This document shows positions 16,073-59,889 of a DNA stretch of 64,000 nucleotides, piece by piece. The notes beneath the pieces were generated by a model that did no database searches, was not told the DNA's origin, and saw only the letters and a list, made by a program, of their open reading frames with translations. The stretch spans positions 992,001 through 1,056,000 of the forward strand of contig JAWHQI010000013.1 in assembly GCA_033032865.1 (NCBI GenBank), written 5' to 3'. Source of the stretch: Dactylorhiza incarnata. Its lineage: Eukaryota > Streptophyta > Magnoliopsida > Asparagales > Orchidaceae. Position 1 is the first letter of the stretch. Every line of letters starts with the position of its first letter. A program made the position numbers and the translations under genes.

Positions 16073-16078
16073 AGTTTT

Positions 16079-16096
16079 TGGCGCCGTTGCCGGGGA
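16079..16096 (+). promoter_or_regulatory. N primer-binding site, tRNA-Asp type
   Basis: TGGCGCCGTTGCCGGGGA, six bases after the LTR end. Complementary to the 3' end of tRNA-Asp, the Athila primer. Confidence 0.93.
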
Positions 16097-16233
16097 AATA
16101 TATTTGTTGATATTTTGAAAGCGTGAATTTTATTACTTTTATCAATCTCTTTCTCCGCCCCCATTTCTCCTTTTGATTTATTTTCAAATTTCATTCTATT
16201 AAGTGACGGTTGTTCATTTATCTTTCTTCAAAA

Positions 16234-17217: not shown

Positions 17218-17395
17218 CAATAACCGTCTAGCTTAAAGACGGGAAAAAGAAAGCGCTCTTGGGAGGCACCCCTTGCTTATCATTATTTTTCTTGCAATTT
17301 ACTTTTTATGCATTTTATTTACTTTTCCCTCCTACTTGGCTTATCAACATTGGGGACAATGTTTATTTTTAAGTATGGGGGTGTATTCTCCTATA
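17218..17395 (+). other. Conserved Athila post-pol segment and internal PPT-like motif
   Basis: Contains AAAGCGCT-TTGGGAGGCACCCC (17252-17271), matching 57034-57053 in element A, then ACATTGGGGACAATGTTTAT and TTTAAGTATGGGGGTGTA (17348-17384). The purine motif AAGTATGGGGGT repeats the true PPT at 18586. Both motifs are standard in Athila 3' regions. Confidence 0.75.
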
Positions 17396-18585: not shown

Positions 18586-18601
18586 TAAGTATGGGGGTAT
18601 T
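18586..18601 (+). promoter_or_regulatory. N polypurine tract
   Basis: TTAAGTATGGGGGTATT immediately before the 3' LTR; primes plus-strand DNA synthesis. Same motif as at 58611-58626 in element A. Confidence 0.85.
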
Positions 18602-20159
18602 TGATAGTGCATTATTTATAGTTATTTTTATATAGTATTTTAGTAGTAATTAATTAGTTTTTATATAATTTTAATTTAATATATATCTAATTTGCTTTGT
18701 TTTATATTTTCAGGGACTTTGGGGCTGCTAATAGCAATTTCAAGCACATAGCCGTGTTCAGGGGAAATTCTGGAGCATTTCTGCAAAAACCCTCAATACA
18801 CGCCTCAGGTCACGGGCGTGACCTAGGGGCGTGACCATGGCCACGACCGTGTATCGCTTTCAGCTCACAGAACTCGCTGCCACGTCGGATTAAAGTTACA
18901 CGCCCCAGGTCACGGGCGTGACCGGGGGCGTGACCTTCAAGTCACGGGCGTGACTCGCCCAACAAGCATTCAATTCAAGCAGTTTCTGCCGCCGAGTCGT
19001 TCCAGCTTACACGCCCTTGGTCACGGGCGTGACCGAGGCCGTGCCCTCTCCCTCAACTGCCAAATTAACTCCAGATCGCGCCGTTTCCCGCCGTTTCCTG
19101 ACTCGGTCAAGACACGCCCTAGGTCACGGGCGTGACCTAGGCCGTGACCCGTCGAGATGATCAATTTTGGCGGTTTTTCTTCCCCAACGTTCCCGGGCTT
19201 TCAAGACGCAATTACGCAGCTTACACGCCCTTGGTCACGGGCGTGACCAAGGGCGTGACTCAGCAATTTTCTGCATAAAAGCCAGCTGCTGCCAAAGTGA
19301 TGGGCATCCAGGCCATGCTTAGTTTGGATCGTTTCTAGTATAGGTTTTCTGCATTATTCTTAGTGTAACTTTATTTTATGTCTTGTCTTTTTTAATTCCT
19401 AGCTTAGATTTACTTTACATGCAATTGTACTTTTCTTTACTTAGAAATAAAAATAACTTTCTTCTCAATTATGTTTTGTTAATTTTCATAGTATTTGGTC
19501 GGATGAATTCTTAAGCTTTTATCTTTTCAAAATCTCTTATTCATAGTTTAGTTTGGAAAACTAAGATTTACCGTTGATTTGCAATTTTTGGTTTCATATT
19601 TCTAGGGTATGATAATCAAGTTTGATCCGTATTTTAGTGTATCGAGAGATCCGTAAATACGGGTAGATCGCTCATCGGTAAAAAGAGTTGTATGCATTCC
19701 TCGAGAGAGGGTGACGCAAATCTTCCGGATTGGAGTCAAATCCAATAGTGGGGCTCACCGCATAAAGCAAGCTTAGGGGTTTCGACTGGCCGAGGGGTCT
19801 TAATCGATCAACCTAAGGTTAGGTGGTAGTTCTCTCGAGAGAGGTTCTATCATATTTTGGGAACCTCCACGGTCAAGTTTGTCTAAATCGATTTCTTTTG
19901 AATTCTAAATTTACAAAACATTTCACTTAAGAATGATTCCCGATCAAATGTTTCTTTTCTTCTAATTATTTTCAAAACTCTATTTTACTGCCGATAAAAT
20001 AATAATAATTTGCGTGAGTAGAAGTAATCAACAGACCCGTGGAATACGACACTTGATATTTATTTGTTTTGAATATCCTATGCTATGAATGATAGGTGCT
20101 CTTGCCTATAGTTCGTAGAATTTGGAGAAAATTATTTACATCCTAAATTTTAGCTATCA
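18602..20159 (+). repeat. N 3' LTR, TATA box damaged
   Basis: Nearly identical to 14513-16072 but two bases shorter. The loss falls in the TATA box: CCTATAAAAG of the 5' LTR reads GCATAAAAG here (about 19274-19280). Followed by CTCAT, the right target duplication, after which the B1 LTR resumes. Confidence 0.93.
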
Positions 20160-20164
20160 CTCAT

Positions 20165-20609: not shown

Positions 20610-20615
20610 AGTTTT

Positions 20616-27770: not shown

Positions 27771-27854
27771 AGTTCTTGTAATTGACCCATAATATGTTTT
27801 ATTCTTCATATGTTAGTCTTGAAACTTTTTCTAAGTAGGAATTCCCAGGTTCAT

Positions 27855-41945: not shown

Positions 41946-43227
41946 TGATAAAGTAGTTTTTATATAAGTTTTTAATAGAAATTTTTGTAATTATTTAATA
42001 TGATTTTTCCTTTTTATGTCAATTTTAGGTTATAAGTAGTTCTTTTTGTAATTTTGATTCTAACTTAGCCTAATTTTAATATTTGCAGATTTTTGGACAA
42101 ATTGGGAAAATATTGCATTACACGCCCTCGGTCACGCCCGTGACCAAGGGCGTGTAACTTGAAGACCAGTCCAGGTCGATGCCGTGCTGTTGAGCTAGTC
42201 CACACCCAGTCACGCCCCATGTCACGCCCGTGACCCAAAGTCACGCCCGTGACCATGGGCGTGTAATATTAGAATCTGCCGCGTGGAGCTGCCGTCGAGA
42301 CGAGAAGTTGCCGTTGAGAAGTCAACCAAAGTCACGCCCGTGACCCAAAGTCACGCCCGTGACCTTCCCGCGTGATCCAAGCACGCCGCCGCGCGGTCTG
42401 CCTAGCCCATGCCGCATTAAATGAAGCTGTCCTGAGTCACGCCCGTGACCCATATGTCACGCCCGTGACATGTCCGATTTTCTCCCGCCGTCACGCCAAG
42501 CCCACGCCGCTGCCGGATCCAATGTTATAGTGATTACACGCCCTTGGTCACGCCCGTGACCGAGGGCGTGTAACTTGAAAATTTTGCCTATAAATACAGA
42601 GGCTCTCCTTGAGTCCAGGGTTCAGAAATTTGGAGATGGGGAGGTGCTGTTAGAGCTGAGAGTGAGTTTTTCAAGTTAATGTTCATGTTTCTTAAGGCTT
42701 TCATGTTCTCCTCCTTCCCTTTTTCATGCAATGTTGTAGTGTAACTTTCGTGTACTAGTTTTCTTAAGCTTGCAACTTTCATTTTCCTTAGCCTTGCACT
42801 CTTAATTTAAGGCTTGTAATAGTTCTTTGATTTTCAATAAAATTAGTTTTCTCTTTCATGTTCTTTTTCTCCTTAAGTAATTTCTTCCTTTTCATGCAAG
42901 GTTAAATTTTTCTCTCCTTAGTAATGTTCTCTTTTTTATGCAATGTCAATTTCTCTTTCTTTTCATGCAATGTTCAAGCTTTTCATTTAGTTTGAATTTA
43001 GTTTTAATTTTAGTTAAGCGAAAACAAACCACCTCAAATTTTCGTCGATAAAATAATAGTGATTCTCCTCGAAGTAGAAGTAATCAACGCGCCCCGTGGA
43101 ATACGACCTTGATATTCCTAAATATCCTATACTATAGACGATAAGGTACACTTGCCTTTATCGGATATAGTTTTGGAGAAAATCTTAACCCTTCACTAAA
43201 TTTCAAAACCTACCAAATTAAATATCA
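41946..43227 (+). repeat. A 5' LTR
   Basis: TGATAAAG...AAATATCA. 42119-42573 has eight copies of GTCACGCCCGTGAC, the reverse complement of the motif in element N. Larger palindromes cap both ends of the array (42119-42157 and 42536-42573, arms of 19 bases with one mismatch: TTACACGCCCT... / ...AGGGCGTGTAA). The TATA box TATAAATA is at 42589-42596, just after the second cap. Confidence 0.94.
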
Positions 43228-43233
43228 AGTTTT

Positions 43234-43251
43234 TGGCGCCGTTGCCGGGGA
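43234..43251 (+). promoter_or_regulatory. A primer-binding site, tRNA-Asp type
   Basis: TGGCGCCGTTGCCGGGGA, six bases after the LTR. Confidence 0.95.
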
Positions 43252-43390
43252 CTTTGCGTAGATATTTTGAAAAGAGGATAGCTATTAATTTTATCATGCT
43301 TCTTTCTATTTTAGTTTGCTTTTTCTAACTTTCAAAAAGAAAAAAAAAATATTTTTAGTTTTTCTTCTTCCTTTCTTCTCTTTCTAGTGT

Positions 43391-44939
43391 ATGACCCGAG
43401 GTAGCACTTCGATTCTTCCTTTTGATCTGGAGATCGAGCGAACCCTTTTGAGGCACCGCCGTTCTCGTGATCAGGGAAATCAAATAGAATCCGAAGAGTC
43501 GATCGGTGACACTAACGCAGCAAATATGGATCATAATCTTAATCCTCCTAATCTTAACGAGCCAAATCCTAATGAGGACGTGCAACGGACCATGTCCTAT
43601 TATGCGCGGCCGAATTTGGAAGGCACACAATCGAGTATTGTTCGCCCCACGGTGGCGAACAATAATTTTGAGATCAAGTCCAGCATCATACAAATGGTGC
43701 AACAATCGGTGACCTTTGATGGTCAACCGGACGAGGATCCAAATTCACATATCTCTTACTTTCTTGAAATTTGCGACACTTTTAAGATCAATGGCGTCAC
43801 CGATGACGCCATTCGATTACGTCTTTTTCCTTTTTCTTTGCGGTCTAAGGCCAAGCAGTGGCTGGGCTCCCTACCTAGGGGATCCATCACTACATGGGCC
43901 GAAATGGCGGAAAAATTTCTTAATAAATATTTCCCGCCTTCAAAGACTGCTAAATTGCGCACGGATATTGCATCGTTCATGCAAATCGACTCGGAGACTC
44001 TCTATGACACATGGGAGCGCTTCAAGGAGCTTTTGCGTCGATGCCCTCACCATGCACTTGCCACTTGGCAACAAGTGCAAGTTTTTTATAATGGCTTAAA
44101 TCTCCAAACGAGGCAAATGATTGATGCGGCCGCCGGGGGGACATTAAATAATAAAACCCCGATCGCCGCTCAAGAGCTTTTCGAAGAGATGGCCACAAAT
44201 GCGTATCAATGGAACATGCCCCGAGCGCGGCCTAATAAGCCGGCCGGAATTTTTGAAATAGACGCAAACGCAAATTTGGCTTTACAAGTTGAGCGCTTAA
44301 CAAAGCAAGTGGCGGAGATGTCTGTTTCCTCCGCCACTCCTCCTTGGGCCAATAACGTTTTAATTGAAGAACATGTTGACTACATGGGAAATCCACCTCG
44401 GCCTTCCTATAACCCGAACACCGCTCCGTATAATAACACCTACAATGCGGGTTATAGGAATCATCCGAATTTCTCATGGAGCAACCAAGGAAATGCTCAG
44501 CGTCCTATGAATTTAAATCAACCTCCCCCTAATCAACTTCTTAACTTAACTCCGCCTCAAAAATTGATTTCTCAAAATTATAATCCACCCGGTTTTCCAC
44601 CGCAACAGCAAAAACTCTCTCCGATTGAAGAGGTTTTTGCAAAATATGTTGCTACAAATGAAACGAACATCCGGAACCTTACCGGATCAATCAAAAATTT
44701 AGAGAATCAAGTGGGCCAACTCGCAAAGATGATTTCTGAGCGTCAACAAGGAGCACTACCGGGGAACACCGAGCAAAATCCAAAGGAGAGCGCGCACGCG
44801 ATTACACTCCGAAGCGGGAAGGAGGTGGTTCAAAAGCAGGACGAACCCAAGGTAATTTCCTCTCCTCCTCCTACTTTTAATTCATCTTCGAATTTGCCCG
44901 CTACGATAGCTCCGCACTCTTTTATTTTAAATCCGCGCG
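43391..44939 (+). CDS. A Gag (N-terminal part of Gag-Pol), cut by B2
   Basis: ATG at 43391 (MTRGSTSILPFDLEIERTLL). The capsid-like core follows: VTFDGQPDEDPNSHISYFLE, FPFSLRSKAKQWLGSLP, ITTWAEMAEKFLNKYFPP, ETLYDTWERFKELLRRCP, QVQVFYNGLN. Then a coil (LQVERLTKQVAEM), EEHVDYMGN, the Athila signature YNAGYRNHPNFSWSN, and near the C-terminus KNLENQVGQLAKMISERQ and HAITLRSGKEV. The usual Athila Cys-His knuckle between the coil and the YMGN block is missing; the only cysteines lie in the capsid region. No stop separates Gag from protease, so this is the front of a long polyprotein, interrupted at 44939 by element B2. Forms cytoplasmic particles around element RNA. Confidence 0.9.
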
Positions 44940-46634
44940 TGATGAGTCCTGATCATATACACTTTTATGGACTCATCTGGGCCGTTTTTCTAGTCATTTC
45001 ACCGCACTTTAGCCCTGTAATAGTTCATATTGATCAATCCATGCTAGGTGCACATCTAGGCCCACTTTGGTGTGATTTTCGTGCTTATTATCATTAGTAG
45101 TATTCATGTGCTGTCAAGTGCCACTTTCAGTGGCTAGATTTGTGGTTGTGCCTGGAATAGGAGTCGTGCGAGTGTTCCCGGTGCAATTCTGCACAGGAAC
45201 ACTGCGCACGATCACCGGTTCTATTGCGCACGACCACTGGTCGTGCGCCACTGATCGTGTGCACTTGACCCTTTTTTATGAGTTCTGTTTGGTGCAGTGC
45301 GCACGACCATCAATGCCAGCGCGCACGACCACCGGTCGTGCGCCACTGCTCGTGCGCATTTGCCATTAAATTTCCGAGTTCTGTTTGCTGTAGTGCGCAC
45401 GACCATCAACTACAGTGCGCACGACCACCGGTCGTGCGCCACTGGTCGTGCGAACATTTTATTTTATAATTTCTGTCTTTGCAGGCTCCGTCCAGGCAGA
45501 GCGCACGATCACAGGATTCCAGTGCGCACGACCACTGGTCGTGCGCCAATGACCGTGCGCACTGTTTATTCCAGCGCCTATAAAATCCGCTGCTCGCGAT
45601 TTAGGTCGGATCCATCGTCTTCTTCCGCCGTTTTCCGCCCGGTTCCGTCCAGATTCGCCCCTCCACCGTCGCCCACCATATGGAGGTGCTCCGGGCTTGC
45701 TCTTCACGCCAATCTTGAGCCGGAGTTTCCTCTCGGCCGCCTCCTTCATCCAAGAGCTTCAAAGGTAGACCTAACCGCCATTACCATCAAGCAAGAGGAA
45801 GTTTGCAACCTCTACCGGATCGTGACACGAAGAAGACGGGTCCATTGGAGAGTCGTGACAGCTCTCTCTACCCCGGACGTAGTTGCGGACCGAGCTTGGA
45901 CGCGGATTGACAACCCGGCGATTCCAACCGTGAATCTACAATGAGCCTTCGGATTCGGTCGATTTCTTGCTCTGTTCTTCTCTTATTGATGTCTATGTAG
46001 TTAGATCTAACATTATGATGAAGCGTGCTTGATTATTAGCATTTATACTTGATTATGTCTATGTGATTTGAGTATTCTTGCTTATTATTTTGAGGTGTGC
46101 CTTGTGGTTTGGATTGTTGGTTGTCGTGTGCCGCACTAGCAATTTCTAGTGGCGTGCTTGTCGAAGAGGTGCTTGCGACCCTCACTCCGCTAGCCTACTC
46201 GTCCATCCGCCTACCGAAGCGTGGCATCGCGGCCCGTACTCCATCCCGCCTAACGAAGCAGCGCGCTCAAGGCCTGCATAGTTCGATCCGCTTGCCTACT
46301 CGTCCATCCGCCCTTACGAAGTAGCGCGTTCAAGGCCTACGTAGTCTTCCATCCCGCCGAGCGAAGCTTTGCATAGCGGCATTGCATAGGAGTAGTTATA
46401 GCATTTTCTCTTTGTTTTCCACAAAACCAAAACCCCCGTTTCCGCATCCATCCGCTCTTAAGGATTTCAATCTCAAGTCCTTCCTCGAAACCTAACTCCA
46501 CCTTACTGTGTTCCTCAAGAGACCGACACTCGGGGATTACTCCTCGTTTTATATTACTTGAACGATCGGTACACTGCCATTTCGTGTCGCAGTCGAGCTA
46601 CCGCCTATAGCGGTGTGTGAGATTTGCGCCATCA
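44940..46634 (+). repeat. B2 LTR1
   Basis: TGATGAGTCC...GCGCCATCA, 1695 bp. 45205-45560 holds an array of inverted repeats with arms such as GCGCACGACCA / TGGTCGTGCGC (11 bases around one) and GCGCACGACC / GGTCGTGCGC around ACC. The TATA box CTATAAAAT is at 45578-45586. Confidence 0.94.
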
Positions 46635-46640
46635 AGTTTT

Positions 46641-46658
46641 TGGCGCCGTTGCCGGGGA
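46641..46658 (+). promoter_or_regulatory. B2 primer-binding site
   Basis: TGGCGCCGTTGCCGGGGA, tRNA-Asp type, six bases after LTR1. Confidence 0.94.
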
Positions 46659-46888
46659 ACACAGTCGTGTGAGTTTTCTTGAGAGGGAGAGCCGAGAGAT
46701 AGTAGTTCTTCCAGTGTGTATAGCCGCTTTATTATTTTTGTTTGCCTTTTAATTATCTTTTGTTTGTTTTTATTTCTTCATCCCCTATTTTAAAGTTTTA
46801 GGCAAGTTTTATTCAAGGAGTTTTTCTAGTTGTGTAGATTTCCTTGCAAAGAATTTCAGTTTCTTTTTATCTGCTTTGAATTTTGAAA

Positions 46889-48088
46889 ATGTCGTCATGG
46901 GATATTTCACCTAGCTTTAATGACAAGATGGTTTATTATTTGGACCAAATGAATGAGTTAAATGCTAGGCAGTGTAGGAACATTGTTTGCTTGTTGTGTC
47001 GAGGAGAGGGTCATGAATTGAAGGACTGTCCGCGCCTTTTCAATCCTGACCGCCGCTCCTCCACTCATGACGACATTGTCCCTATCACTCATTCTTTACC
47101 CATGGAGGCAATTGTGCCCTCTACCCCTGAGCTTGTCTCGTGCACGGACTCCTCACTCCCTCTGTGTGGCTTCACTCCTAGTGATGATGATCACTCATCT
47201 GTTAGCCAACAAGGAGAGGAATGGGAGCTCCTAGATGCACCTGAGTATGATGAGGAAAGTATTCTTTCCATCGGGGAGGCTTTAGCAGATCTTTTTGCGG
47301 AGGAACCGAATATTTTTGTCCCTCCAGTTTCTTTGCAAAATTTTTCTACACATATTCTTTATGATCCTATCGAAGTAAAGGAGCTGGGTGATGCTTCTGA
47401 CTCGGAGGGTGCTCCAAAGTGGGATGAGGATGTCATTTTCCTTGAGGGGGAGAATGAATACTTTGAACACGATGATGCACCCCGGTGGGATGAGGAGGAT
47501 ACTCTCTCTGATAAGGAGGTTTGCACTTCTTCATGGGACGAGGAGGTCCAAATCACCACTGAGGCTCCTGAGTTCTCAAGTCCCCCTTGCTATGATATTT
47601 ACGATGATGATAGTGATCTACCCTTAGATCCTGCTGGGAGTGAGACCGGGACCACTCCCCCGATTGATTTTTATTTAAGTCATTCCTCTTCTTTATTTCT
47701 TGATCCCCCTTCTTTTTCTGAGCCTGTGCAGGTTGAATCTTCACAGGTATCCCAGGAGGACTTGGAGCTTTTTGCTCAAGTCAATGGTGAGAGCATCCTC
47801 TCATGCGAGGAGGTTTATTCTCCCTCCGTAGAGGAAGCTCCACTCATTGCCTTCTCCTCCTGCAGACCTGCTGCAGACGATACCTTGCTGGGCAAGGATA
47901 GTTTTGGTAAGATGAGTGAGGACCAGGCCTCCTCCTCTTCTTACTTTCTTTTCCCTCTACCTGTGAGGAGCAGGTATCTATATTTAGGTAGAGGGGTGAC
48001 TGCTCTGTCTCCGTATCGGTACCCGCTACCGATGCGCATATTAGAACAGTTACCTGTGCACTTTTCTTTTCATAGGCCTATAAGCTAG
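46889..48088 (+). CDS. B2 zinc-knuckle acidic protein (399 aa), intact
   Basis: ATG at 46889 (MSSWDISPSFNDKMVYYLDQ). A perfect CCHC knuckle is at C34-C37-H42-C47 (CLLCRGEGHELKDC), the nucleic-acid-binding module of retroviral nucleocapsids. The rest is strongly acidic and probably disordered: SPEL-type blocks, EEWELLDAPEYDEESIL, then repeated Trp-acid motifs (KWDED, RWDEEDTLSD, SWDEEVQ), GSETGTTPPIDFY, and the C-terminus SPYRYPLPMRILEQLPVHF. No protease, RT or integrase motif. It is the only ORF in the internal region and is much larger than a knuckle fragment needs to be. Closely related to the broken copy in B1, and it shares its knuckle-to-LPVHF plan with the protein of N. A Gag-derived accessory protein is my best guess; function unproven. 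Confidence 0.82.
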   Translation: MSSWDISPSFNDKMVYYLDQMNELNARQCRNIVCLLCRGEGHELKDCPRLFNPDRRSSTHDDIVPITHSLPMEAIVPSTPELVSCTDSSLPLCGFTPSDDDHSSVSQQGEEWELLDAPEYDEESILSIGEALADLFAEEPNIFVPPVSLQNFSTHILYDPIEVKELGDASDSEGAPKWDEDVIFLEGENEYFEHDDAPRWDEEDTLSDKEVCTSSWDEEVQITTEAPEFSSPPCYDIYDDDSDLPLDPAGSETGTTPPIDFYLSHSSSLFLDPPSFSEPVQVESSQVSQEDLELFAQVNGESILSCEEVYSPSVEEAPLIAFSSCRPAADDTLLGKDSFGKMSEDQASSSSYFLFPLPVRSRYLYLGRGVTALSPYRYPLPMRILEQLPVHFSFHRPIS

Positions 48089-49822
48089 AACTGTACAAAA
48101 TCTGAATAAGTCGTGCTGGGATGACAATAACTCCAGTAGTTATCTTACTTTTCATGCATTTTATTTTATGCAATCCTGTTTAGTTAGCTGTAGTATTTTA
48201 GTTTATCTTTTTCTGTTTCTTTTGTTTTTGCGGAGCTGACCCCTGCAGGTACTTCTTCTGGATGGCGGATGCTGCAGCTTAGTCGTGGTTTAAACGCCAA
48301 TCTTCTGGTGTGCTCATTGCTGAGCACTGGGTACTCTCTTTCCCTAGCTTTTTCTGATTATCATGTCATATATTCTGTGGATTGTTTAGTTTAAGTCTGG
48401 GGGAGAGCAGTTTTTGCACCCACTCACGTGCACTCATGCATAGCATGCCAGAAGTATTTTAGTTTCAGTTTTATTATTTGTTCATTTTCATTGCACACCA
48501 CAGCACCCACTTGAGCGCGTACTCATCTGTATGCAAGCTCTGTAGCGAATTTAATTCTTCTGCTTATTTGGGAAAGTCTAGGTGATGGCTTAGGACTATG
48601 TAGCAGAGTAAAATGTTGACTCTAGTAGTGCTCCTAGTCGAGTGCTCGGTTGCATAGAAATTCGTGTAGATTAGACTTCTTTTTATACTATGGTTTTATA
48701 TTTTTCTCTATTAGTGTAAATGTTGTTTACTCTACTCAAATGGTGAATCCGGTGTGAATCAAATGGTAGCGTAGGGATGTGTGTAAACGATCGCTAGACT
48801 CGTATTGCTTGAGTCGGGAGAAAGGAGAATCTTTCTCGGTGGCTAGAACTTCCCCAAGCGATTCTTGAAGCATGGGTATACGGTTAGTCAATTGTGTGAA
48901 TGTGATATAGGCCATCATTTTGGCCCGGTTGAGCCTTTGTGCCTATTCTTACCGCTATATCCTCGCTAGCCCAGTTGTGCCTACCCCATTCTTTTGGTTC
49001 AGCCCCACTATTGTTCACCAAAGCCTAAACTCCAATCCTAGCGCACACCCAAAAAGCAAGCATTTTGTTTAAATTTCAAATTGGTGGTGTTGATTGTGGT
49101 AGTACATTGTGAAAATGTGGTTGTGCATCTTTGAAAATTTGCTGAAATTGTTAAAGAAAGAAAAAGAAAAGAAGAAAAAGATTTGAAAAGAAAAAGAAGA
49201 ATGAAAAGTTTAATTGAAAAAAAATCTGTTTGAGATTTATGTTTGGGAGTAGGCGGTGCACGCACCCATGCTGTTAAGTCCAAGTCTGGGGGTGTTGTGT
49301 ACCCGCATGTTTGTGTGGTGAATGAGGATAGTTTCCTGCATTAGCTCATTTGGGTTTAGTGCTTTAGCCGTCGTTTTTATCTTTGTTTTTCCTCACCTAA
49401 ACCCAAGCCCCATTTAAAACCTAAAGTCCTATTGATTCACGCATTTGAGTCAAACCAGTACCGTGGAGAGAATGTGACCGGGCAAGCCTATGGTCACCGA
49501 CACCGATGGATTTCAGTGGAGTTTTTCCCGCATCCCGATCTTGGGCAATGCTCGTCTCAGCGTTTAGTTTACTTTCTCCGTATGCATGACCGAACGATTC
49601 ACCGCTGTTCACCATTTTGAGTAGTTGTAATATGCTTTTACTCTTTTAGAAATATATAAACTGTTTATATAATCAGAAATCTTCTCTACTATTCTTCTTA
49701 TGCACGTGAGCATGCGACTTCGCATGGTACTCTGTATTGTAGTTTTAAGCCATCTACTGTTCTTTCCTAGTTCGCTTAGAATTTGTTTGCTCGGGACGCG
49801 CAAACAGTTAAGTCTGGGGGTG
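48089..49822 (+). other. B2 3' non-coding region with three PPT-like motifs
   Basis: Begins with GTCGTGCTGGGATGAC (about 48109), reminiscent of the Athila post-pol region. AAGTCTGGGGG occurs at about 48394, 49280 and 49811, the last being the PPT before LTR2. A purine block AAAGAAAAAGAAAAG lies near 49155. Same order and spacing as B1. Confidence 0.7.
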
Positions 49823-51517
49823 TGATGAGTCCTGATCATATACACTTTTATGGACTCATCTGGGCCGTTTTTCTAGTCATTTCACCGCACTTTAGCCCTG
49901 TTATAGTTCATATTGATCAATCCATGCTAGGTGCACATCTAGGCCCACTTTGGTGTGATTTTCGTGCTTATTATCATTAGTAGTATTCATGTGCTGTCAA
50001 GTGCCACTTTCAGTGGCTAGATTTGTGGTTGTGCCTGGAATAGGAGTCGTGCGAGTGTTCCCGGTGCAATTCTGCACAGGAACACTGCGCACGATCACCG
50101 GTTCTATTGCGCACGACCACTGGTCGTGCGCCACTGATCGTGTGCACTTGACCCTTTTTTATGAGTTCTGTTTGGTGCAGTGCGCACGACCATCAATGCC
50201 AGCGCGCACGACCACCGGTCGTGCGCCACTGCTCGTGCGCATTTGCCATTAAATTTCCGAGTTCTGTTTGCTGTAGTGCGCACGACCATCAACTACAGTG
50301 CGCACGACCACCGGTCGTGCGGCACTGGTCGTGCGAACATTTTATTTTATAATTTCTGTCTTTGCAGGCTCCGTCCAGGCAGAGCGCACGATCACATGAT
50401 TCCAGTGCGCACGACCACTGGTCGTGCGCCAATGACCGTGCGCACTGTTTATTCCAGCGCCTATAAAATCCGCTGCTCGCGATTTAGGTCGGATCCATCG
50501 TCTTCTTCCGCCGTTTTCCGCCCGGTTCCGTCCAGATTCGCCCCTCCACCGTCGCCCACCATATGGAGGTGCTCCGGGCTTGCTCTTCACGCCAATCTTG
50601 AGCCGGAGTTTCCTCTCGGCCGCCTCCTTCATCCATGAGCTTCAAAGGTAGACCTAGCCGCCATTACCATCAAGCAAGAGGAAGTTTGCAACCTCTACCG
50701 GATCGTGACACGAAGAAGACGGGTCCATTGGAGAGTCGTGACAGCTCTCTCTACCCCGGACGTAGTTGCGGACCGAGCTTGGACGCGGATTGACAACCCG
50801 GCGATTCCAACCGTGAATCTACAACGAGCCTTCAGATTCGGTCGATTTCTTGCTCTGTTCTTCTCTTATTGATGTCTATGTAGTTAGATCTAACATTATG
50901 ATGAAGCGTGCTTGATTATTAGCATTTATACTTGATTATGTCTATGTGATTTGAGTATTCTTGCTTATTATTTTGAGGTGTGCCTTGTGGTTTGGATTGT
51001 TGGTTGTCGTGTGCCGCACTAGCAATTGCTAGTGGCGTGCTTGTCGAAGAGGTGCTTGCGACCCTCACTCCGCTAGCCTACTCGTCCATCCGCCTACCGA
51101 AGCGTGGCATCGCGGCCCGTACTCCATCCCGCCTAACGAAGCAGCGCGCTCAAGGCCTGCATAGTTCGATCCGCTTGCCTACTCGTCCATCCGCCCTTAC
51201 GAAGTAGCGCGTTCAAGGCCTACGTAGTCTTCCATCCCGCCGAGCGAAGCTTTGCATAGCGGCATTGCATAGGAGTAGTTATAGCATTTTCTCTTTGTTT
51301 TCCACAAAACCAAAACCCCCGTTTCCGCATCCATCCGCTCTTAAGGACTTCAATCTCAAGTCCTTCCTCGAAACCTAACTCCACCTTACTGTGTTCCTCA
51401 AGAGACCGACACTCGGGGATTACTCCTCATTTTATATTACTTGAACGATCGGTACACTGCCGTTTCGTGTCGCAGTCGAGCTACCGCCTATAGCGGTGTG
51501 TGAGATTTGCGCCATCA
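49823..51517 (+). repeat. B2 LTR2
   Basis: 1695 bp, same length as LTR1 and differing at about a dozen sites by eye. Palindrome array 50088-50445; TATA box CTATAAAAT near 50461. Confidence 0.94.
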
Positions 51518-51540
51518 AGTTTTTGGCGCCGTTGCCGGGG
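51518..51540 (+). other. Orphan PBS between LTR2 and LTR3
   Basis: A 23-base remnant made only of AGTTT followed by TGGCGCCGTTGCCGGGG. It joins LTR3 directly at ATGAGTCC, so the first two bases (TG) of LTR3 are missing. This is a complete internal region collapsed to its primer site. Confidence 0.93.
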
Positions 51541-53219
51541 ATGAGTCCTGATCATATACACTTTTATGGACTCATCTGGGCCATTTTTCTAGTCATTTCA
51601 CCGCACTTTAGCCCTGTTATAGTTCATATTGATCAATCCATGCTAGGTGCACATCTAGGCCCACTTTGGTGTGATTTTCGTGCTTATTATCATTAGTTGT
51701 ATTCATGTGCTGTCAAGTGCCACTTTCAGTGGCTAGATTTGTGGTTGTGCCTGGAATAGGAGTCGTGCGAGTGTTCCCGGTGCAATTCTGCACAGGAACA
51801 CTGCGCACGATCACCGGTTCTATTGCGCACGACCACTGGTCGTGCGCCACTGATCGTGTGCACTTGACCCTTTTTTATGAGTTCTGTTTGGTGCAGTGCG
51901 CACGACCATCAATGCCAGCGCGCACGACCACCGGTCGTGCGCCACTGCTCGTGCGCATTTGCCATTAAATTTCCGAGTTCTGTTTGCTGTAGTGCGCACG
52001 ACCATCAACTACAGTGCGCACGACCACCGGTCGTGCGCCACTGGTCGTGCGAACATTTTATTTTATAATTTCTGTCTTTGCAGGCTCCGTCCAGGCAGAG
52101 CGCACGATCACAGGATTCCAGTGCGCACGACCACTGGTCGTGCGCCAATGACCGTGCGCATGTTTATTCCAGCGCCTATAAAATCCGCTGCTCGCGATTT
52201 AGGTCGGATCCATCGTCTTCTTCCGCCGTTTTCCGCCCGGTTCCGTCCAGATTCGCCCCTCCACCGTCGCCCACCATATGGAGGTGCTCCGGGCTTGCTC
52301 TTCACGCCAATCTTGAGCCGGAGTTTCCTCTCGGCCACCTCCTTCATCCAAGAGCTTCAAAGGTAGACCTAGCCGCCATTACCATCAAGCAAGAGGAAGT
52401 TTGCAACCTCTACCGGATCGTGACACGAAGAAGACGGGTCCATTGGAGAGTCGTGACAGCTCTCTCTACCCCGGACGTAGTTGCGGACCGAGCTTGGACG
52501 CGGATTGACAACCCGGCGATTCCAACCGTGAATCTACAACGAGCCTTCGGATTCGGTCGATTTCTTGCTCTGTTCTTCTCTTATTGATGTCTATGTAGTT
52601 AGATCTAACATTATGATGAAGCGTGCTTGATTATTAGCATTTATACTTGATTATGTCTATGTGATTTGAGTATTCTTGCTTATTATTTTGAGGTGTGCCT
52701 TGTGGTTTGGATTGTTGGTTGTCGTGTGCCGCACTAGCAATTGCTAGTAGTGTTCTTGTCGAAGAGGTGCTTGCGACCCTCACTCCGCTAGCCTACTCAT
52801 CCATCCGCCTACCGAAGCGTGGCATCGCGACCCGTACTCCATCCCGCCTAACGAAGCAGCGCGCTCAAGGCCTGCATAGTTCGATCCGCTTGCCTACTCG
52901 TCCATCCGCCCTTACGAAGTAGCGCGTTCAAGGCCTATGTAGTCTTCCATCCCGCCGAGCAAAGCTTTGCATAGGAGTAGTTATAGCATTTTCTCTTTGT
53001 TTTCCACAAAACCAAAACCTCCATTTCCGCATCCATCCGCTCTTAAGGACTTCAATCTCAAGTCCTTCCTCGAAACCTAACTCCACCTTACTGTGTTCCT
53101 CAAGAGACCGACACTCGGGGATTACTCCTCGTTTTATATTACTTGAACGATCGGTACACTGCCGTTTCGTGTCGCAGTCGAGCTACCGCCTATAGCGGTG
53201 TGTGAGATTTGCGCCATCA
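51541..53219 (+). repeat. B2 LTR3
   Basis: 1679 bp, lacking the initial TG, with a short deletion near 52965 relative to LTR1 and LTR2. Ends GCGCCATCA, followed by the GCGCG target duplication, after which the A polyprotein resumes. Confidence 0.93.
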
Positions 53220-53224
53220 GCGCG

Positions 53225-55045
53225 CTCCTACTTCTAATATTCCGTATCCATCGAAATTTAAAAATGAAAGCGCCGAAAAAAATTATAAAAAGTTTTTAGA
53301 TGTTTTAAAACAAATCCATATTAATGTTCCTTTCTGCGAGGCTATCTCACAAATGCCTAAATATGCGAAATATCTTAAGGAGTTGCTCTCCAATAAAAAA
53401 AAGTTAGAAGATATTTCGCATATTTCTTTAAACGCAGAATGCTCCGCGGTTGTACTCAACAAATTGCCGAAAAAAGCAAATGACCCGGGACGATTTTCCA
53501 TCCCATGTCTTTTTGGCAATTCGTTAGTAAAACACGCCTTAGCGGATCTTGGAGCAAGCATCAACCTTATGCCATTTTCTTTGTTCAAAAAGTTAGGTCT
53601 AGGAAATCCAAGGCCCACTCGAATGAGTATCCAATTAGCGGATCGTTCTTTAAAATATCCGATAGGAATAGTGGAGGACGTGCTCGTCAAGGTTGACAAA
53701 TTCATCTTCCCGGTGGATTTTGTCATTCTTGACATCGAAGAGGATGCCGAAGTACCCCTCATACTCGGCCGGCCCTTCCTTGCCACCTCCCGCGCTATTA
53801 TCGACGTAAGTAACGGAAAGCTCCTCCTACGGGTTGGAGACGATGAAGTTACTTTCGGCATAAATTCCTCGATGCGGAACACGCTAGAAAATGACGATTC
53901 ATGTTTTTACTTAGAAGAGTGTTGTGAGTTCGATTCATCCCTCGAGTTAGTTTCATCGGCGAATAGTGATTCCGAGCCCGTAGAGCTCTTTTGCGATGAA
54001 GAAGAAGTCTCTCACCCCACACCACCCGAACCATTATTTTTAGAAAAATTAAAAATCAAGACTTCTTATGAAGAACCACCCGAATTAGAGTTGAAACAAC
54101 TCCCCCCTCACCTTAAATACTTGTTTTTGGAAAAAGAGTCTAAGCTACCCGTCATCATTTCATCCGATCTTAGCAACTCAGAAATTTCTGAGTTGACTAT
54201 AGTCTTAAGAAAGCACCGCCACGCAATTGCGTGGCAATTATCGGACATTAAGGGTATAAACCCATCTTTCTGCACTCATAAAATATTTCTCGAAGATAAT
54301 TCCCGAAATTCAGTCCAGCCTCAACGACGACTAAACCCTAACATGAAAGAAGTCGTTAAGGCCGAAGTTATAAAACTTCTGGATGCGGGAATCATCTACC
54401 CGATATCGGACAGTACTTGGGTTAGCCCAGTACAAGTCGTGCCAAAGAAAGGTGGTGTTACGGTAGTTGCGAACGAAAATAACGAATTGATCCCAACCCG
54501 TACTGTTACGGGTTGGCGGATGTGCATCGACTATCGGAAATTAAATGATGCCACCCGTAAGGATCATTTCCCTCTACCATTTATCGACCAAATTTTAGAA
54601 CGCCTTTCGGGTCACTCCTACTACTGTTTCCTCGATGGTTTGTCGGGATACTTCCAAATTCCGATTTCGTCCGACGACCAAGAGAAAACCACTTTCACTT
54701 GTCCCTTTGGCACCTTCGCTTATCGAAGGATGCCATTCGGTCTTTGTAACGCGCCAGCTACATTCCAAAGATGTATGCTGGCAATTTTTGACGAGTTAGT
54801 GGAGGAGGTGATGGAAGTATTTATGGACGATTTTTCCGTATACGGGAGTTCTTTTGAAAATTGTTTAAAAAATCTCGAGTGCGTGTTGCAGCGATGTGAG
54901 GAAACAAATTTAGCGCTTAATTGGGAAAAATGCCATTTTATGGTCAAGGAAGGACTAGTCCTTGGCCATAAAATTTTGGGCAAGGGGATCGAGGTCGATA
55001 GGGCCAAGATTGAAGTAATTGAAAAACTCCCCCTCCCACAAACGT
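53225..55045 (+). pseudogene. A Pol part 1: protease and reverse transcriptase
   Basis: The frame continues that of Gag beyond the B2 insertion. The protease motif ALADLGASINLMPFSLFKK is near 53535-53590 (catalytic Asp in DLGAS), followed by PLILGRPFLATSRAIIDV. RT: ILDAGIIYPISDS-type block near 54380, VSPVQVVPKKGG, WRMCIDYRKLNDATRKDHFP, LDGLSGYFQIPI, PFGTFAYRRMPFGLCNAPAT, and the catalytic FMDDFSVYG near 54820-54845, typical of Athila. The frame is lost near 55033-55036, in a C-rich stretch, by what looks like a single missing base; RNase H and integrase follow in the next frame. Otherwise all catalytic motifs are intact. Confidence 0.92.
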
Positions 55046-56999
55046 AAAAGCTATTAGGAGTTTCCTAGGCCACGCGGGGTTCTATCGGCGCTTTATACAA
55101 AATTTTTCCAAAATCACAAAGCCGTTAACCCATCTTCTTGAAAAGGAATCCTCATTTATTTTTAGCAATGAATGTCATTTGGCTTTTAAACTTATTAAAG
55201 AAAAACTTATAAACTCCCCGATTCTAGTCGCGCCGGATTGGTCACTCCCTTTTGAAATCATGTGCGACGCGAGTGACATTGCGGTTGGTGCCGTTTTAGG
55301 CCAACGGGTGAGTAAGTATTTCCACCCTATTTATTATGCGAGCAAAACACTCACGTCGGCACAAGCGAATTACACCACTACCGAAAAAGAGCTTCTAGCG
55401 ATCGTTTTTGCCTTCGATAAGTTTAGGTCATATATCACCCTCTCGAAAGTTATCGTCTTCACGGATCACTCCGCACTTAGGTATATTTTAAGCAAATCGG
55501 ACGCCAAGCCTCGTCTTTTGCGATGGATCCTCCTCTTGCAGGAGTTTGACTTAGAGATCCGGGACAAAAGAGGAGCCGAAAACTTGGCGGCCGATCACCT
55601 TTCTCGTTTAGAAAATCCCTCCTCGGAAGTATTGATAGAATCTGACATCGATGATAAATTTCCCGAAGAGCGCCTCCTCGCTCTCGAAAATATTAATTCA
55701 TCGTCTACCCCCTGGTTTGCAGATCTGGCTAACTATTTAGTAGCCCGGGTCCTGCCGAAAGAATTCTCGAGTCAGCAAAAGAAGAAATTCTTTTCTGATT
55801 TAAAGAATTACTTTTGGGAGGACCCCTTTTTATTCCGTGTATGCGCAGACCAAGTGGTGAGACGATGCGTCTCGAGTGAGGAGGGTCTTAAAATTTTACG
55901 ACATTGTCACGAGGGACCATCCGGTGGCCATTATCATTCAAACCGAACCGCGAGGAAAGCGCTGGAGGTGGGCTTTTATTGGCCCTCGCTCTTCAAAGAT
56001 GCTCACACCCTTGTGAGTACTTGCGACAGCTGCCAGCGGTCGGGCAACATCTCTCGCCGGGATGAGATGCCCCAAAATATTTTCTTAGAATGCGAAATTT
56101 TTGATCTTTGGGGCATTGATTTCGTTGGTCCTCTCCCTCCTTCGTTTTCAAATAAGTATATTCTAGTAGCGGTCGACTACGTGTCGAGGTGGGCGGAAGC
56201 GCAAGCTCTCCCCACCAACGATGCGCGAGTCGTCGTTAACTTTTTAAAAAAATTATTCTCTCGATTTGGCACTCCGCGCGCTATTGTGAGTGATCGGGGC
56301 ACCCATTTTTGCAATACTCAATTCACAAAAATCTTAGCAAAATATGGTGTCACGCACAAATTATCCACTGCATATCACCCGCAAACGAGCGGCCAAGTTG
56401 AAGTCGTTAATCGAGAATTAAAACGAATCTTAGAAAAAACAGTTTCTATTAATCGGAAGGATTGGGCAATAAAGCTCGATGACGCGCTATGGGCCTATCG
56501 AACGGCGTACAAGACTGCTATCGGTTGTACACCATATCGAATGGTCTATGGCAAGGCTTGCCACCTTCCGGTCGAATTAGAACACCGCGCATTTTGGGCG
56601 CTTAAATTTTTAAATCTTGATTCTACTTTAGCGGGCGAACAAAGAAAATTTCAAATGAACGAATTAGATGAGTGGAGAGCGAATGCGTATGAGAGTAACA
56701 AATTATATAAGGAGCGAACAAAGTTTTATCACGATAAGCATATAAAATTTCCAAAAACTTTTTCGCCGGGCGATCTCGTCCTCCTTTATAATTCCCGCCT
56801 TCGCCTTTTTTCGGGAAAACTAAAATCCCGATGGACCGGACCCTTTATTGTTAAAGAGGTTTGGTCCTATGGGACAATTTTAATTTCCCACCCGGAAAAA
56901 GGTACCTTCAAAGTTAACGGGCACCGCCTTAAATTATATCGTCCGGGAGAGTTACCAAATGAAAAGAGTGATTCAATTGTTTTTCAACCTTTAATATGA
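55037..56999 (+). pseudogene. A Pol part 2: RNase H and integrase
   Basis: Shifted frame of the same polyprotein. RT connection ([15 protein letters not shown]), RNase H with [14 protein letters not shown] near 55262 and [12 protein letters not shown], then [10 protein letters not shown]. Integrase: the HHCC zinc domain ([13 protein letters not shown] ... CDSCQRSGN, 55905-56045), core with [10 protein letters not shown] (first Asp, near 56110), [10 protein letters not shown] (second Asp, near 56288) and [14 protein letters not shown] (Glu, near 56395), then [11 protein letters not shown] and C-terminal [12 protein letters not shown] and [14 protein letters not shown], stop at 56997-56999. All catalytic residues are present. 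The break upstream means it is not translated in register with RT in this copy. Confidence 0.92.
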
Positions 57000-57280
57000 C
57001 CGGCAAGTGGGTCAAGCTACGCGACCTTAAACAAAGCGCTTTTGGGAGGCACCCCAAAGTTTTCTTTTTATTGTCTTCTCTTGTTCTTTAATATATTTTG
57101 TAGGTAATCGTCGCTTCCCCGCGCAAACTTCAAAAATCAGGGAAGCCCCTTCTCTTTCTTCCTTCTCTTTTATCATGCATTTCCTTTTTATTTTGTTTTG
57201 CACTTCTTTTTTTCCTTTACTTCATACTTAGTTTTAAACATTGGGGACAATGTTTAACTTTAAGTATGGGGGTGTAAATA
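57000..57280 (+). other. Athila post-pol segment and internal PPT-like motif in A
   Basis: TTAAACAAAGCGCTTTTGGG (57026-57045) leads into a small hairpin TTTGGG-AGGCAC-CCCAAA. Later come ACATTGGGGACAATGTTTAA and TTTAAGTATGGGGGTGTAA (57238-57278). Both are shared with N. Confidence 0.78.
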
Positions 57281-58610
57281 GTTTTTTTTAAATAGTTGTT
57301 AAATCAGAAAATTTTCAAAACAAAAAAATATATATTTTTTCTTATGTTTTCTTCTATTTTAGCACTTGTAAAACCCAAAAAACTAAAAAAAATAGAAAAC
57401 AGAAAAATTTAAATCTTGGAAAGGGACGTTTGGGATTTTATCCCATCACACCTCCTAGTACCTTGCGAACCCTTCACCGGGTAGCCCTTGGGAAGTCCAA
57501 GACTTGCAAAAAAAAAAAAAAAATTTTTTTAAGTTTTAAAGCTAGTTCCCTTTCTTTGTAAATAGTTTTTAATGAGAAAAATTCAAAAAAAAGATAATAT
57601 CAAAAATTCAAAAAAATTCTTATTTCCCTCCTTGTTGTTTTTGTGATTTCTTAGAAATCTAGTTGAGAATGTTTATAAGCATGTTTAAGTTTTTAATTGG
57701 CTGAAATTTTGCTTATCATAGTTTGTTAATTTTAAATTTGAGGTAATTTTGATTTAAGAATCATCTTATGATTTTAAATTGATTAGAGAATTTTGTTAGC
57801 ATGACTTCTCTTTTTATTTTTAAATGGCTTCATTTTGTAGTAAATTTCCTAAACCTCTTTAGATTTTAATTATATTTTCTTCTAACTTCTTAGATCTTAG
57901 GAATTTTTAATTTTACTAGAATTTGCTCTCAATATGATTTAAAGCTAGCTAGATTTTTTTTTCTTCCCCTACTCTACCCCTTTGATGGCATAAAAAAAAA
58001 TGTATTAAAAGATCATATGTCCTGGGAATAAGAGGATAAAATTCATTATTCCCTAAAACATATGCACCCAAAATATTTGAAAAGATTATATGGCATGAAG
58101 TAAGAGGATAAAATTCATTACTCCTAAACCATATACATTTTGGGTTCTTATTAGAAGAGAAAAAAAAAGAGTAAGAAAAAAAAAGAGAAGGAAATTTCAT
58201 GATAAATTCCATTTCCTCCATTCAAAAATTTCTCTTCTTATGCCAAATTTTATGAAATCCCCCTTAGCCAATTATCATTGTTCTAGTTTTAGTTAAAAAT
58301 TATGGAGAGAGCAATATTTAGTAATTTACTTTTCCTTAAGATTCTTTTAAGATAGAGTTCTTATAATTTTAATTTAATTTAGTTTTATAATTTCTACAAT
58401 TTTGTCAAACTACTTAATTTTCTTGAGAAGTTATTGCCTAAACATTTTTCCCTCTTTTCAAATCATCATCATAATTTAGGACTTAACTCCCCCTTGAATT
58501 TACTCTTAACTTAACTTTTGGTTAAATGAAATTTTAGTTTTAAATTAAAATTTTTTTAAGGATGTCTTATAAATAATGTCTCACACTTTTGCTCTGGAAT
58601 AGCAAAATCT
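57281..58610 (+). other. A 3' non-coding region (AT-rich)
   Basis: No coding potential. Collinear with N 17396-18585 and contains the structured block at 57986-58245. A run of about 16 A and 7 T bases lies at 57508-57532. Confidence 0.7.
57986..58245 (+). ncRNA. Predicted three-hairpin closed RNA structure in A
   Basis: Closing stem TGGCAT (57986-57991) / ATGCCA (58240-58245). Hairpin 1: CATATGT / ACATATG (58014-58020, 58058-58064) and GGGAATAA / TTATTCCC (58024-58031, 58046-58053). Hairpin 2: ATATGG / CCATAT (58088-58093, 58129-58134) and AGTAA / TTACT (58099-58103, 58118-58122). Hairpin 3: AGAAGAGAAA / TTTCTCTTCT (58153-58162, 58229-58238) and AGGAAAT / ATTTCCT (58189-58195, 58211-58217). 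Loops 1 and 2 hold GAGGATAAAATTCA; loop 3 is altered (ATGATAAATTCC). Stem bases differ from N while pairing is kept. Confidence 0.72.
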
Positions 58611-58626
58611 CAAGTATGGGGGTATT
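58611..58626 (+). promoter_or_regulatory. A polypurine tract
   Basis: CAAGTATGGGGGTATT immediately before the 3' LTR. Confidence 0.85.
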
Positions 58627-59889
58627 TGATAAAGTAGTTTTTATATAAGTTTTTAATAGAAATTTTTGTAATTATTTAATATGATTTTTCCTTTTTATGT
58701 CAATTTTAGGTTATAAGTAGTTCTTTTTGTAATTTTGATTCTAACTTAGCCTAATTTTAATATTTGTAGATTTTTGGACAAATTGGGAAAATATTGCATT
58801 ACACGCCCTCGGTCACGCCCGTGACCAAGGGCGTGTAACTTGAAGACCAGTCCAGGTCGATGCCGTGCTGTTGAGCTAGTCCACACCCAGTCACGCCCCA
58901 TGTCACGCCCGTGACCCAAAGTCACGCCCGTGACCATGGGCGTGTAATATTAGAATCTGCCGCGTGGAGCTGCCGTCGAGACGAGAAGTTGCCGTTGAGA
59001 AGTCAACCAAAGTCACGCCCGTGACCCAAAGTCACGCCCGTGACCTTCCCGCGTGATCCAAGCACGCCGCCGCGCGGTCTGCCTAGCCCATGCCGCATTA
59101 AATGAAGCCGTCCTGAGTCACGCCTGTGACATGTCCGGTTTTCTCCCGCCGTCACGCCAAGCCCACGCCGCTGCCGGATCCAATGTTACAGTGATTACAC
59201 GCCCTTGGTCACGCCCGTGACCGAGGGCGTGTAACTTGAAAATTTCGCCGATAAATACAGAGGCTCTCCTTGAGTCCAGGGTTCAGAAATTTGGAGATGG
59301 GGAGGTGCTGTTAGAGCTGAGAGTGAGTTTTTCAAGTTAATGTTCATGTTTCTTAAGGCTTTCATGTTCTCCTCCTTCCCTTTTTCATGCAATGTTGTAG
59401 TGTAACTTTCGTGTACTAGTTTTCTTAAGCTTGCAACTTTCATTTTCCTTAGCCTTGCACTCTTAATTTAAGGCTTGTAATAGTTCTTTGATTTTCAATA
59501 AAATTAGTTTTCTCTTTCATGTTCTTTTTCTCCTTAAGTAATTTCTTCCTTTTCATGCAAGGTTAAATTTTTCTCTCCTTAGTAATGTTCTCTTTTTTAT
59601 GCAATGTCAATTTCTCTTTCTTTTCATGCAATGTTCAAGCTTTTTCATTTAGTTTGAATTTAGTTTTAATTTTAGTTAAGCGAAAACAAACCACCTCAAA
59701 TTTTCGTCGATAAAATAATAGTGATTCTCCTCGAAGTAGAAGTAATCAACGCGCCCCGTGGAATACGACCTTGATATTCCTAAATATCCTATACTATAGA
59801 CGATAAGGTACACTTGCCTTTATCGGATATAGTTTTGGAGAAAATCTTAACCCTTCACTAAATTTCAAAACCTACCAAATTAAATATCA
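58627..59889 (+). repeat. A 3' LTR, TATA box damaged
   Basis: Matches 41946-43227 with a deletion of about 22 bases in the palindrome array near 59118 and one array copy altered to CACGCCTGTGAC. The TATA box TATAAATA of the 5' LTR reads GATAAATA here (about 59250-59257). Followed by GGCGG (59890-59894). Confidence 0.94.

Follow-up and report, generated by a model that had tools for sequence, protein, structure and literature searches.

The constitutive transport element (CTE) of Mason-Pfizer monkey virus has a 3' position and presents two like loops in one long stem. It is a structured stem-loop RNA of a retroelement that acts in cis on unspliced RNA, and the direct repeats of Rous sarcoma virus (RSV), 3' cis elements present more than once, have been proposed to take part in the transport of unspliced RNA, with titles cited there pointing to effects on packaging as well (PMC3856414; statements on published work made here refer to titles and to the parts of the texts available). 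Ty3, a member of the Metaviridae, has cis-acting sequences at both ends of its RNA, with the proteins supplied in trans (PMC4974528). In plants, conserved repeated palindromes and multiple polypurine tracts (PPTs) are present in the non-coding parts of Sireviruses, and an extra PPT lies in the "linker" of Athila4 and Calypso, members of the Athila lineage (PMC2829016). Here we describe an array of hairpins in a 64,000-nt stretch of the genome of the orchid Dactylorhiza incarnata (contig JAWHQI010000013.1, positions 992,001 to 1,056,000, forward strand; hereafter the window). The array is found between pol and the 3' long terminal repeat (LTR) of an Athila-like Ty3/gypsy retrotransposon, element A (41946..59889, + strand), and again in a non-autonomous element, N (14512..20159, + strand), both of which share the extra PPT with Athila4 and Calypso. 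It differs from the CTE in sequence and architecture, being a multi-hairpin array, and from the RSV repeats, which are 115 nt long and flank src, in that its units of ~72 nt form one array with no oncogene. In the available part of PMC4974528 no conserved hairpin array is described for Ty3; the Sireviruses are Ty1/copia elements, their motifs lie in the LTR or before env and have CGG-CCG cores, and the available part of PMC2829016 reports no covarying RNA fold for them. Nor do the partial texts describe an RNA fold for Athila4/Calypso or for Diaspora, which is without env and has only 128 bp from pol to the PPT. As far as titles and partial texts go, no covarying RNA element of such kind has been recognised for Athila or plant LTR retrotransposons; the hairpins of PMC11410651 are, in the part available, synthetic RNA interference constructs.

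A sequence-only reading of the window had claimed that the two elements share one folded structure with conserved loops and compensated stems. Its coordinates, stems and loops were confirmed when re-read in the sequence (the N copy starting at 17964), and the minimum free energy (MFE) folds of A 57986-58245 and N 17964-18207 follow the same plan: a closing stem TGGCATA/TATGCCA, two double-stem hairpins, the second of them inside a stem beginning with CCCAA, and a third hairpin. The A region folds at -56.7 kcal/mol (z-score -3.83) and the N region at -63.9 kcal/mol (z -5.74), none of 200 dinucleotide shuffles being as good in either case. In A (all features on the + strand) the arms of the closing stem occupy 57986..57992 and 58239..58245. 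Hairpin 1 (58014..58064; z -4.97 when folded alone) has the outer stem CATATGT 58014-58020 / ACATATG 58058-58064, the inner stem GGGAATAA 58024-58031 / TTATTCCC 58046-58053 and the loop GAGGATAAAATTCA at 58032-58045. Hairpin 2 (58087..58135; z -2.51 alone) has the outer stem TATATGG 58087-58093 / CCATATA 58129-58135, the inner stem GAAGTAA 58097-58103 / TTACTCC 58118-58124 and its loop at 58104-58117, and is enclosed by the stem CCCAAAAT 58067-58074 / ATTTTGGG 58137-58144 (58067..58144 as a whole). Hairpin 3 (58153..58238) has the outer stem AGAAGAGAAA 58153-58162 / TTTCTCTTCT 58229-58238 and the inner stem GGAAAT 58190-58195 / ATTTCC 58211-58216. The structure of N (17964..18207, + strand) is closed by a stem at 17964-17971 / 18201-18207 and has intact hairpin loops at 18010-18023, 18079-18092 and 18157-18170. 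The original description, three hairpins with two stems each and pairing kept in the stems, is right as a plan and needs some amendment: hairpin 2 lies inside a further stem; the generally kept pairing is interrupted in the inner stem of hairpin 2 of A by an A-C mismatch (GAAG/CTCC), where related copies such as L048 read GGAG; loop 3, intact in N, has degenerated in A; and other copies differ in their number of loops. The structure is better called a modular array.

The loop GAGGATAAAATTCA occurs in five exact copies in the window, two in A and three in N, and the hairpin units are tandem copies ~72 nt apart. In sliding 240-nt windows of the + strand the deepest z of each element falls at the domain (-3.92 for A and -3.80 for N), with a second dip of -3.31 at the extra PPT of A. 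Identity between A and N is 84-91% in three 50-nt windows spanning hairpins 1-2, 43-69% in the remaining 50-nt windows between -757 and -57, hairpin 3 among them, and 79% in the last 50 nt, which contain the hairpin preceding the 3' PPT (pre-PPT hairpin). In an Rfam scan the domain matches no family at the gathering threshold, the only borderline match of the window (snoR71) being elsewhere.

Copies not chosen for structure were obtained from the genome by an anchor search with part of the pre-PPT hairpin, the PPT and the start of the LTR; with A's and N's own excluded, it gave 25 copies (reversed-pattern control 0), and all 25 have the two-hairpin core at the same place. Twenty of them contain the exact loop GAGGATAAAATTCA at least once. 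The remaining five (L045, L052, L053, L059, L061) make up a second clade, D, with the same plan and pairs in different letters: the outer stem is CCTATGT/ACATAGG or CTTATGT/ACATAGG, against CATATGT/ACATATG in A/N, the enclosing stem is CCCAAT/ATTGGG, against CCCAAAAT/ATTTTGGG, and the GAGGATAAAATTCA loop is absent. The lengths of the enclosing-stem arms co-vary (AAAA/TTTT in A, AAA/TTT in N, AA/TT in D). The closing-stem core TGGCA/TGCCA is Watson-Crick paired in 22 of the 27 rows formed by the 25 copies with A and N, and in one more by wobble (hand count); one pair further in, 14 of the 20 A/N rows with this core have T-A, and the two D rows with it, L052 and L053, have A-T, their closing stem reading TGGCAA/TTGCCA. 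The number of loops per copy varies from two (L043, L056) up to four (L049, L058, L067), although the loop scan can undercount, and the distance to the pre-PPT hairpin is nearly constant, with the closing-stem arms, where found, at -668 to -599 and -387 to -359. Genome-wide, the A/N unit pattern occurs 8,699 times and the D pattern CATANGCACCCAAN{8,38}GATYBTATG 1138 times, the control being 0 for both; the domain of N itself is present in at least 40 copies at 99-100% identity. Thirty D-pattern matches were cut as loci and 29 used (L082, which is short, was dropped; L094 proved A-type), and, since some letters in one arm of the stems are prescribed by the pattern itself, its rows are reported apart from the unselected ones.

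For the counts of base pairs, rows were placed by pairwise alignment to hand-made family templates; a joint MAFFT alignment of A/N and D, in which hairpin 2 came out misaligned, was excluded. The 25 unselected copies, 23 of them distinct, have pairing in 764 of 808 base-pair cells (94.6%), and at eight pairs they show standard pairs that differ on both sides. Including A and N, which makes 27 rows (24 distinct), the figures are 800 of 845 and again eight, and over the full set of 56 rows (51 distinct) pairing holds in 1582 of 1714 cells. The most variable pair over all rows, pair 2 of the outer stem of hairpin 2, is found as A-T, T-A, T.G and C-G. Changes were then counted on a FastTree tree of the distinct rows by the Fitch method with multifurcations, internal and terminal branches being separated, and compared with a null in which the 3' partners were shuffled among stem columns, a partner shuffle without R-scape-like rate modelling. 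On the internal branches of the 51-row tree there are six double changes that keep pairing, 21 single changes that keep it and 13 that break it, whereas the shuffles give on average 0.93 double changes (maximum 4 in 1000 shuffles) and 25.9 breaks (minimum 14). When only the PPT-anchored rows are taken together with A and N (24 distinct), the counts are six double, 14 single kept and seven broken (null mean 0.93 double, maximum 5; as few broken in 1 of 1000). The terminal branches, which are copies decaying after insertion, show no double change, 24 single kept and 45 broken, so that pairing is kept in 27 of 40 internal changes versus 24 of 69 terminal ones (Fisher p 0.0014). In an automatic alignment of 12 A/N rows 96.1% of the cells pair, and the covariation score, 0.094, is above all 500 shuffles. 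Base pairs are kept by compensatory change beyond the null, the mark of a conserved structured RNA, and the paired plan is kept in this way in at least three family groups (A, N and D), of autonomous type and non-autonomous. A lack of excess covariation, which the sequence-only reading had named as refuting its claim, is not what these counts show; the excess is seen within one genome rather than several species and against a home-made null rather than with R-scape.

A further argument comes from a prediction made on single arms. Right arms TTACATC and TTACTTC should be accompanied by left arms GATGTAA and GAAGTAA, and a genome search that left the two positions of the left arm open returned 946 hairpins (control 0). 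Among 42 of them printed with their letters, the predicted A at pair 2 is present in 42 and the complementary base at pair 3 in 40, the other two being T-T. With right-hand T, only 39 of the 946 hairpins are without the predicted A (A-T in 907); with right-hand C, the left base is G in 2780 hairpins and A in 95, the window's own A among them. This one predicted pair is therefore Watson-Crick in 3,687 of the 3,821 hairpins counted (left C or T with right C being left out), which share ancestry and are not independent events. Hairpins with four letters changed together occur, e.g., GATGTAA/TTACATC versus GGAGTAA/TTACTCC. Finally, a covariance model built from 12 A/N cores was applied to 19 of the 33 D-type loci and recovers the core in every one of them, with scores of 49-68 bits. 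A model of the letters alone, made from the same alignment, recovers it in 12, with scores of 19-31 bits; with default filters and a limit of E 1, seven loci are absent from its matches (L052, L053, L059, L061, L081, L085, L092). The structure adds 26-39 bits on the 12 D loci scored by both models and 33 and 39 bits on the members A and N, the bits being not strictly comparable, as the two models differ in effective sequence number. Given the compensated pairs, the pair kept genome-wide and the contrast between internal and terminal branches, we put the probability that the domain holds a selected RNA structure at about 0.9, and the proposal of a functional RNA in A and N is to that extent supported.

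As to its function, the domain would be a cis-acting part of the genomic RNA of this Athila-like group, placed between pol and the 3' LTR. Element N keeps the LTR ends, the primer binding site (PBS), both PPT regions and the hairpin domain, and because it multiplied without gag-pol while keeping this region, we infer that the domain works in cis, with a reader that comes in trans. Since the conserved scaffold displays a clade-specific loop several times over, the array resembles a multivalent platform for protein, of which the likeliest reader would be Gag (nucleocapsid) selecting genomic RNA for particles, a host export factor coming second. Gag is ranked first since N shares the loops of A and not those of D, as expected for a reader encoded by the elements, and since a zinc-knuckle-like motif is present both in the open reading frame (ORF) of N (CNFCGAPHRSEDC) and in A (CLLCRGEGHELKDC at 46988). 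For Ty3, the cis signals are at the 5' and 3' RNA ends in the available part of PMC4974528. That Gag packages the RNA through this domain is a tentative proposal, to which we would give somewhat less than an even chance. A dimer linkage through a palindrome, which had also been considered, is weakened: no conserved palindromic kissing loop was found, the loops differing by clade and the self-complementary CATATG of the outer stem being replaced by CCTATG or CTTATG in most D copies, with the invariant loop confined to A/N.

Several points weigh against a selected, packaged RNA structure. Retroviral packaging signals are mostly 5', and that of Ty1 is, in the source available in part, also 5'. 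The loops change from clade to clade, which leaves no universal binding site to name. All structural evidence comes from one plant genome (3.27 Gb), and the templates of the clades were matched to one another by hand by someone who knew the plan, a procedure that works in its favour. The first tree test (midpoint root, all branches) gave two double changes against a null mean of 1.12, a number reached by 611 of 2000 shuffles; the re-rooting, the handling of multifurcations and the internal/terminal split were adopted after this result had been seen. With the 24 rows alone the contrast is weaker (pairing kept in 20 of 27 internal versus 15 of 32 terminal changes, Fisher p 0.06), and in the 12-row A/N alignment the both-side pairs number two, reached by 312 of 500 shuffles, and the further pair types nine, reached by 500 of 500, so that two of five measures are weaker or null. 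Some single copies fold poorly now, in the N group up to z +0.98. The minus-strand folds are nearly as good, z of -2 or below being reached by 43 versus 40 of the 56 copies on the two strands; in the sliding windows of the - strand the dip of A again coincides with the domain (-4.49), and N has two places tied at -2.2. The only pointer to the sense RNA, and one that leans its way, is that the paired columns contain more G.U than A.C (88 G.U cells on the sense strand versus 26 A.C cells, which would be the G.U of the other strand), an excess partly inherited from one T.G in D. Outside A, N and D, neither model matches L002 and L003, the closest sequence from another plant, though its 3' end may be incomplete, or the other Athila-like lineages of the genome, represented by one copy each (L098 and L099/L100).

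Among the alternatives, a nuclear export or stability element of the unspliced RNA, recruiting a host export factor in the manner of the CTE or the RSV direct repeats, is possible and on the doubtful side. It would agree with the place of the domain between pol and the 3' LTR, with the tandem similar loops, with the cis action common to N and A, and with the roles given to the CTE and the RSV repeats in the available part of PMC3856414. However, the stretch of A from the integrase (INT) to the 3' LTR contains no ORF of at least 150 aa and hence shows no sign of a spliced env, though no search for introns was made, and the loops differ by clade though the host factors of one plant are shared, which an element-encoded reader fits better. 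To our knowledge, plants have no clear NXF1, and the export factor would have to be a different one. An aid to reverse transcription, e.g., one that exposes or isolates the 3' PPT or the extra one, could account for the near-constant distance to the pre-PPT hairpin and for the position between the two PPTs; with the domain some 360 nt from a PPT that has its own adjacent hairpin, this explanation is improbable. That the hairpins are precursors of small RNAs, whether microRNA (miRNA)-like or triggers of secondary small interfering RNAs (siRNAs), is very improbable. In Arabidopsis, the available part of PMC3276544 has siRNA854 made from an Athila6 region and first proposed from a stem-loop, and the A/N loop (58032-58038) shares GAGGATA with it, possibly by chance, but the stems here are interrupted and only ~5-10 bp long, and D is without the shared 7-mer. 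Plant miRNA precursors are unlike such short interrupted stems.

The remaining two alternatives do without any RNA role or without selection on pairing. The stems are also inverted repeats of the DNA, the folds of the + and - strands are similar in z, and palindromic repeated motifs are present in the LTRs and before env of Sireviruses (PMC2829016, in the part available), all of which would suit palindromes or dyads at the DNA level, serving as protein binding sites or left by recombination. A binding protein, however, would conserve the sequence of the arms, and here the arms change with pairing kept, CATATG being lost in most D copies; the G.U cells, moreover, outnumber the A.C cells, and the loop sequences are conserved within A/N. 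We regard this explanation as quite improbable. Inverted-repeat duplication with tandem copying and no selection on pairing, the likeness of A and N being due to shared ancestry, is again very improbable. It has on its side the tandem units ~72 nt apart, their varying number between copies and the p value of 0.06 in the unselected rows alone; it is opposed by the internal/terminal contrast over all rows, by the predicted pair kept in 3,687 of 3,821 hairpins and by double changes more numerous than in any of the 1000 partner shuffles. Simple duplication, named from the start as the outcome that would undo the structure, fails to account for the way in which separate pairs change in a matched manner from family to family.

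Relatives of the domain were also sought more widely. Among viral contigs the loop pattern gave one likely chance match (L001), and the INT protein and alignment gave no confirmed relative; plasmid sequences gave no match. Other genome contigs yielded two near-identical plant-like contigs, L002 and L003 (99.6%), and the distant L004 (26%). L002 and L003 are the same plant-like retroelement contig in two bacterial assemblies (Solirubrobacter, Geminicoccus), probably contamination; they too have the extra-PPT anchor, and no loop match was found in them at 0-2 mismatches and only chance-level ones at 3. A search with the INT of L002 gave 75 Athila-like places at 61-65% identity to that protein, two of which were inspected. 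In L098, ~0.65-0.9 kb upstream of the PPT hairpin, a 61-nt repeat stands three times in tandem; each unit can be folded into a hairpin with two stems, and the units have in common a loop other than that of A/N, the inner stem CCATGGTCC/GGGCTATGG of unit 1 becoming CCTCAATAT/ATGTTGAGG in unit 3; the shuffle z is about -1 per unit and -0.26 for the whole, and the sliding z shows no dip at the repeats. L100 can be folded as one long hairpin at -0.68 to -0.4 kb, with z -5.84 over 281 nt (600-880) in a window cut around the repeats; its two repeats alone fold no better than shuffles, and the nearest 240-nt windows reach -1.6 and -1.7. These single copies are leads that an array-like structure at this place may be general. 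A wider proposal, that the conserved scaffold would show several clade-specific loops read by the clade's own Gag, that a matching helper would mobilise the non-autonomous elements and that other Athila lineages would have evolved arrays of unrelated sequence, we consider rather unlikely.

Turning to the elements themselves (all features on the + strand), A is bounded by LTRs at 41946-43227 and 58627-59889, which share 97.8% identity in BLAST and whose ends are approximate, and contains a PBS TTGGCGCCGTTGCCGGGGA at 43233-43251 and, identified by Pfam, a gag ORF at 43391-45097, a protease and reverse transcriptase (PR-RT) ORF at 53209-55047 and an RNase H and integrase (RNH-INT) ORF at 55179-56999. 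The Pfam matches in the ORFs of A given (E up to 0.001) are Retrotrans_gag/Ty3_capsid, Asp_protease_2, RVT_1, RT RNase H, H2C2 and rve only, and the RNH-INT ORF has 49-70% identity to the best 120 of 7,973 matching proteins, whose named organisms are all plants. Gag is accompanied by the order PR-RT-RNH-INT, without a chromodomain or an extra archaeal RNase H, and an extra PPT, AAGTATGGGGG, follows pol at 57262 and is repeated at 58612. Athila ORF-1 (PF03078) had no match in the ORFs tested; according to the available part of PMC6317226 it is carried by only 16% of Athila elements, so it is not strictly defining. Athila (OTA superclade, Ty3/gypsy) is the best label for A, assigned from domain order and the extra PPT, without a tree against named references. 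N has LTRs at 14512-16072 and 18601-20159 (99.6% identical), a PBS at 16078-16096 with the same sequence as that of A and a single ORF of 335 aa (16210-17217) with the zinc-knuckle-like pattern CX2CX3HX4C, for which there was no Pfam match and, in a protein search, no homologue at E 1e-3 among 649 candidates. Hairpins at a spacing of 4.2-4.5 kb are found on contigs C42 (2309-19623) and C155 (1424189-1432932), N minus one LTR being ~4.1 kb; the elements are probably arrayed head to tail, those on C42 being N-type and those on C155 belonging to another family. N is nested in an element related to A (13275-25481; ~75-86% to A's blocks), which is followed by a diverged RT/INT fragment (25762-27689, 30-35% to A) and by a tandem satellite with a period of ~95 bp, taken from BLAST self-match offsets (27854-29344). 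Within A, a block of ~1.7 kb is present three times (44939-46658, 49822-51541, 51541-53219) at 98-99% identity, and the snoR71 match lies antisense within gag (43952-44059, - strand; 42 bits versus a cut-off of 40) and may be due to chance.

The extra PPT of A, at 57262-57272, is preceded by a self-complementary stretch ACATTGGGGACAATGT at 57238-57253 (57238..57272 together), and that of N, at 17371-17381, by one at 17347-17362. The pre-PPT hairpin of A, TTTTGCT-CTGGAAT-AGCAAAA at 58587-58607, stands before the 3' PPT AAGTATGGGGG at 58612-58622 (58587..58622 together); in N the two lie at 18562-18582 and 18587-18597. In fact, a short inverted repeat precedes each of the PPTs inspected (58587-58622 and 57238-57272 in the window; L098:1130; L100:125 and 1277; L002:8940), its letters varying by lineage (TTTTGCT-CTGGAAT-AGCAAAA, TTTGCTAGGGACTAGCAAA, ACATTGGGGACAATGT). 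When three of these hairpins were folded alone, only that of L100 was better than shuffles (z -3.7; the others -0.1 and -0.6). The inverted repeat is possibly a hairpin for PPT recognition.

If the domain of A, N and D is a packaging or export signal, it would explain how gene-poor elements parasitise autonomous ones. It would also give a structural marker by which non-autonomous families could be paired with their helpers, and the selection of genomic RNA in plant retrotransposons would become a testable step.
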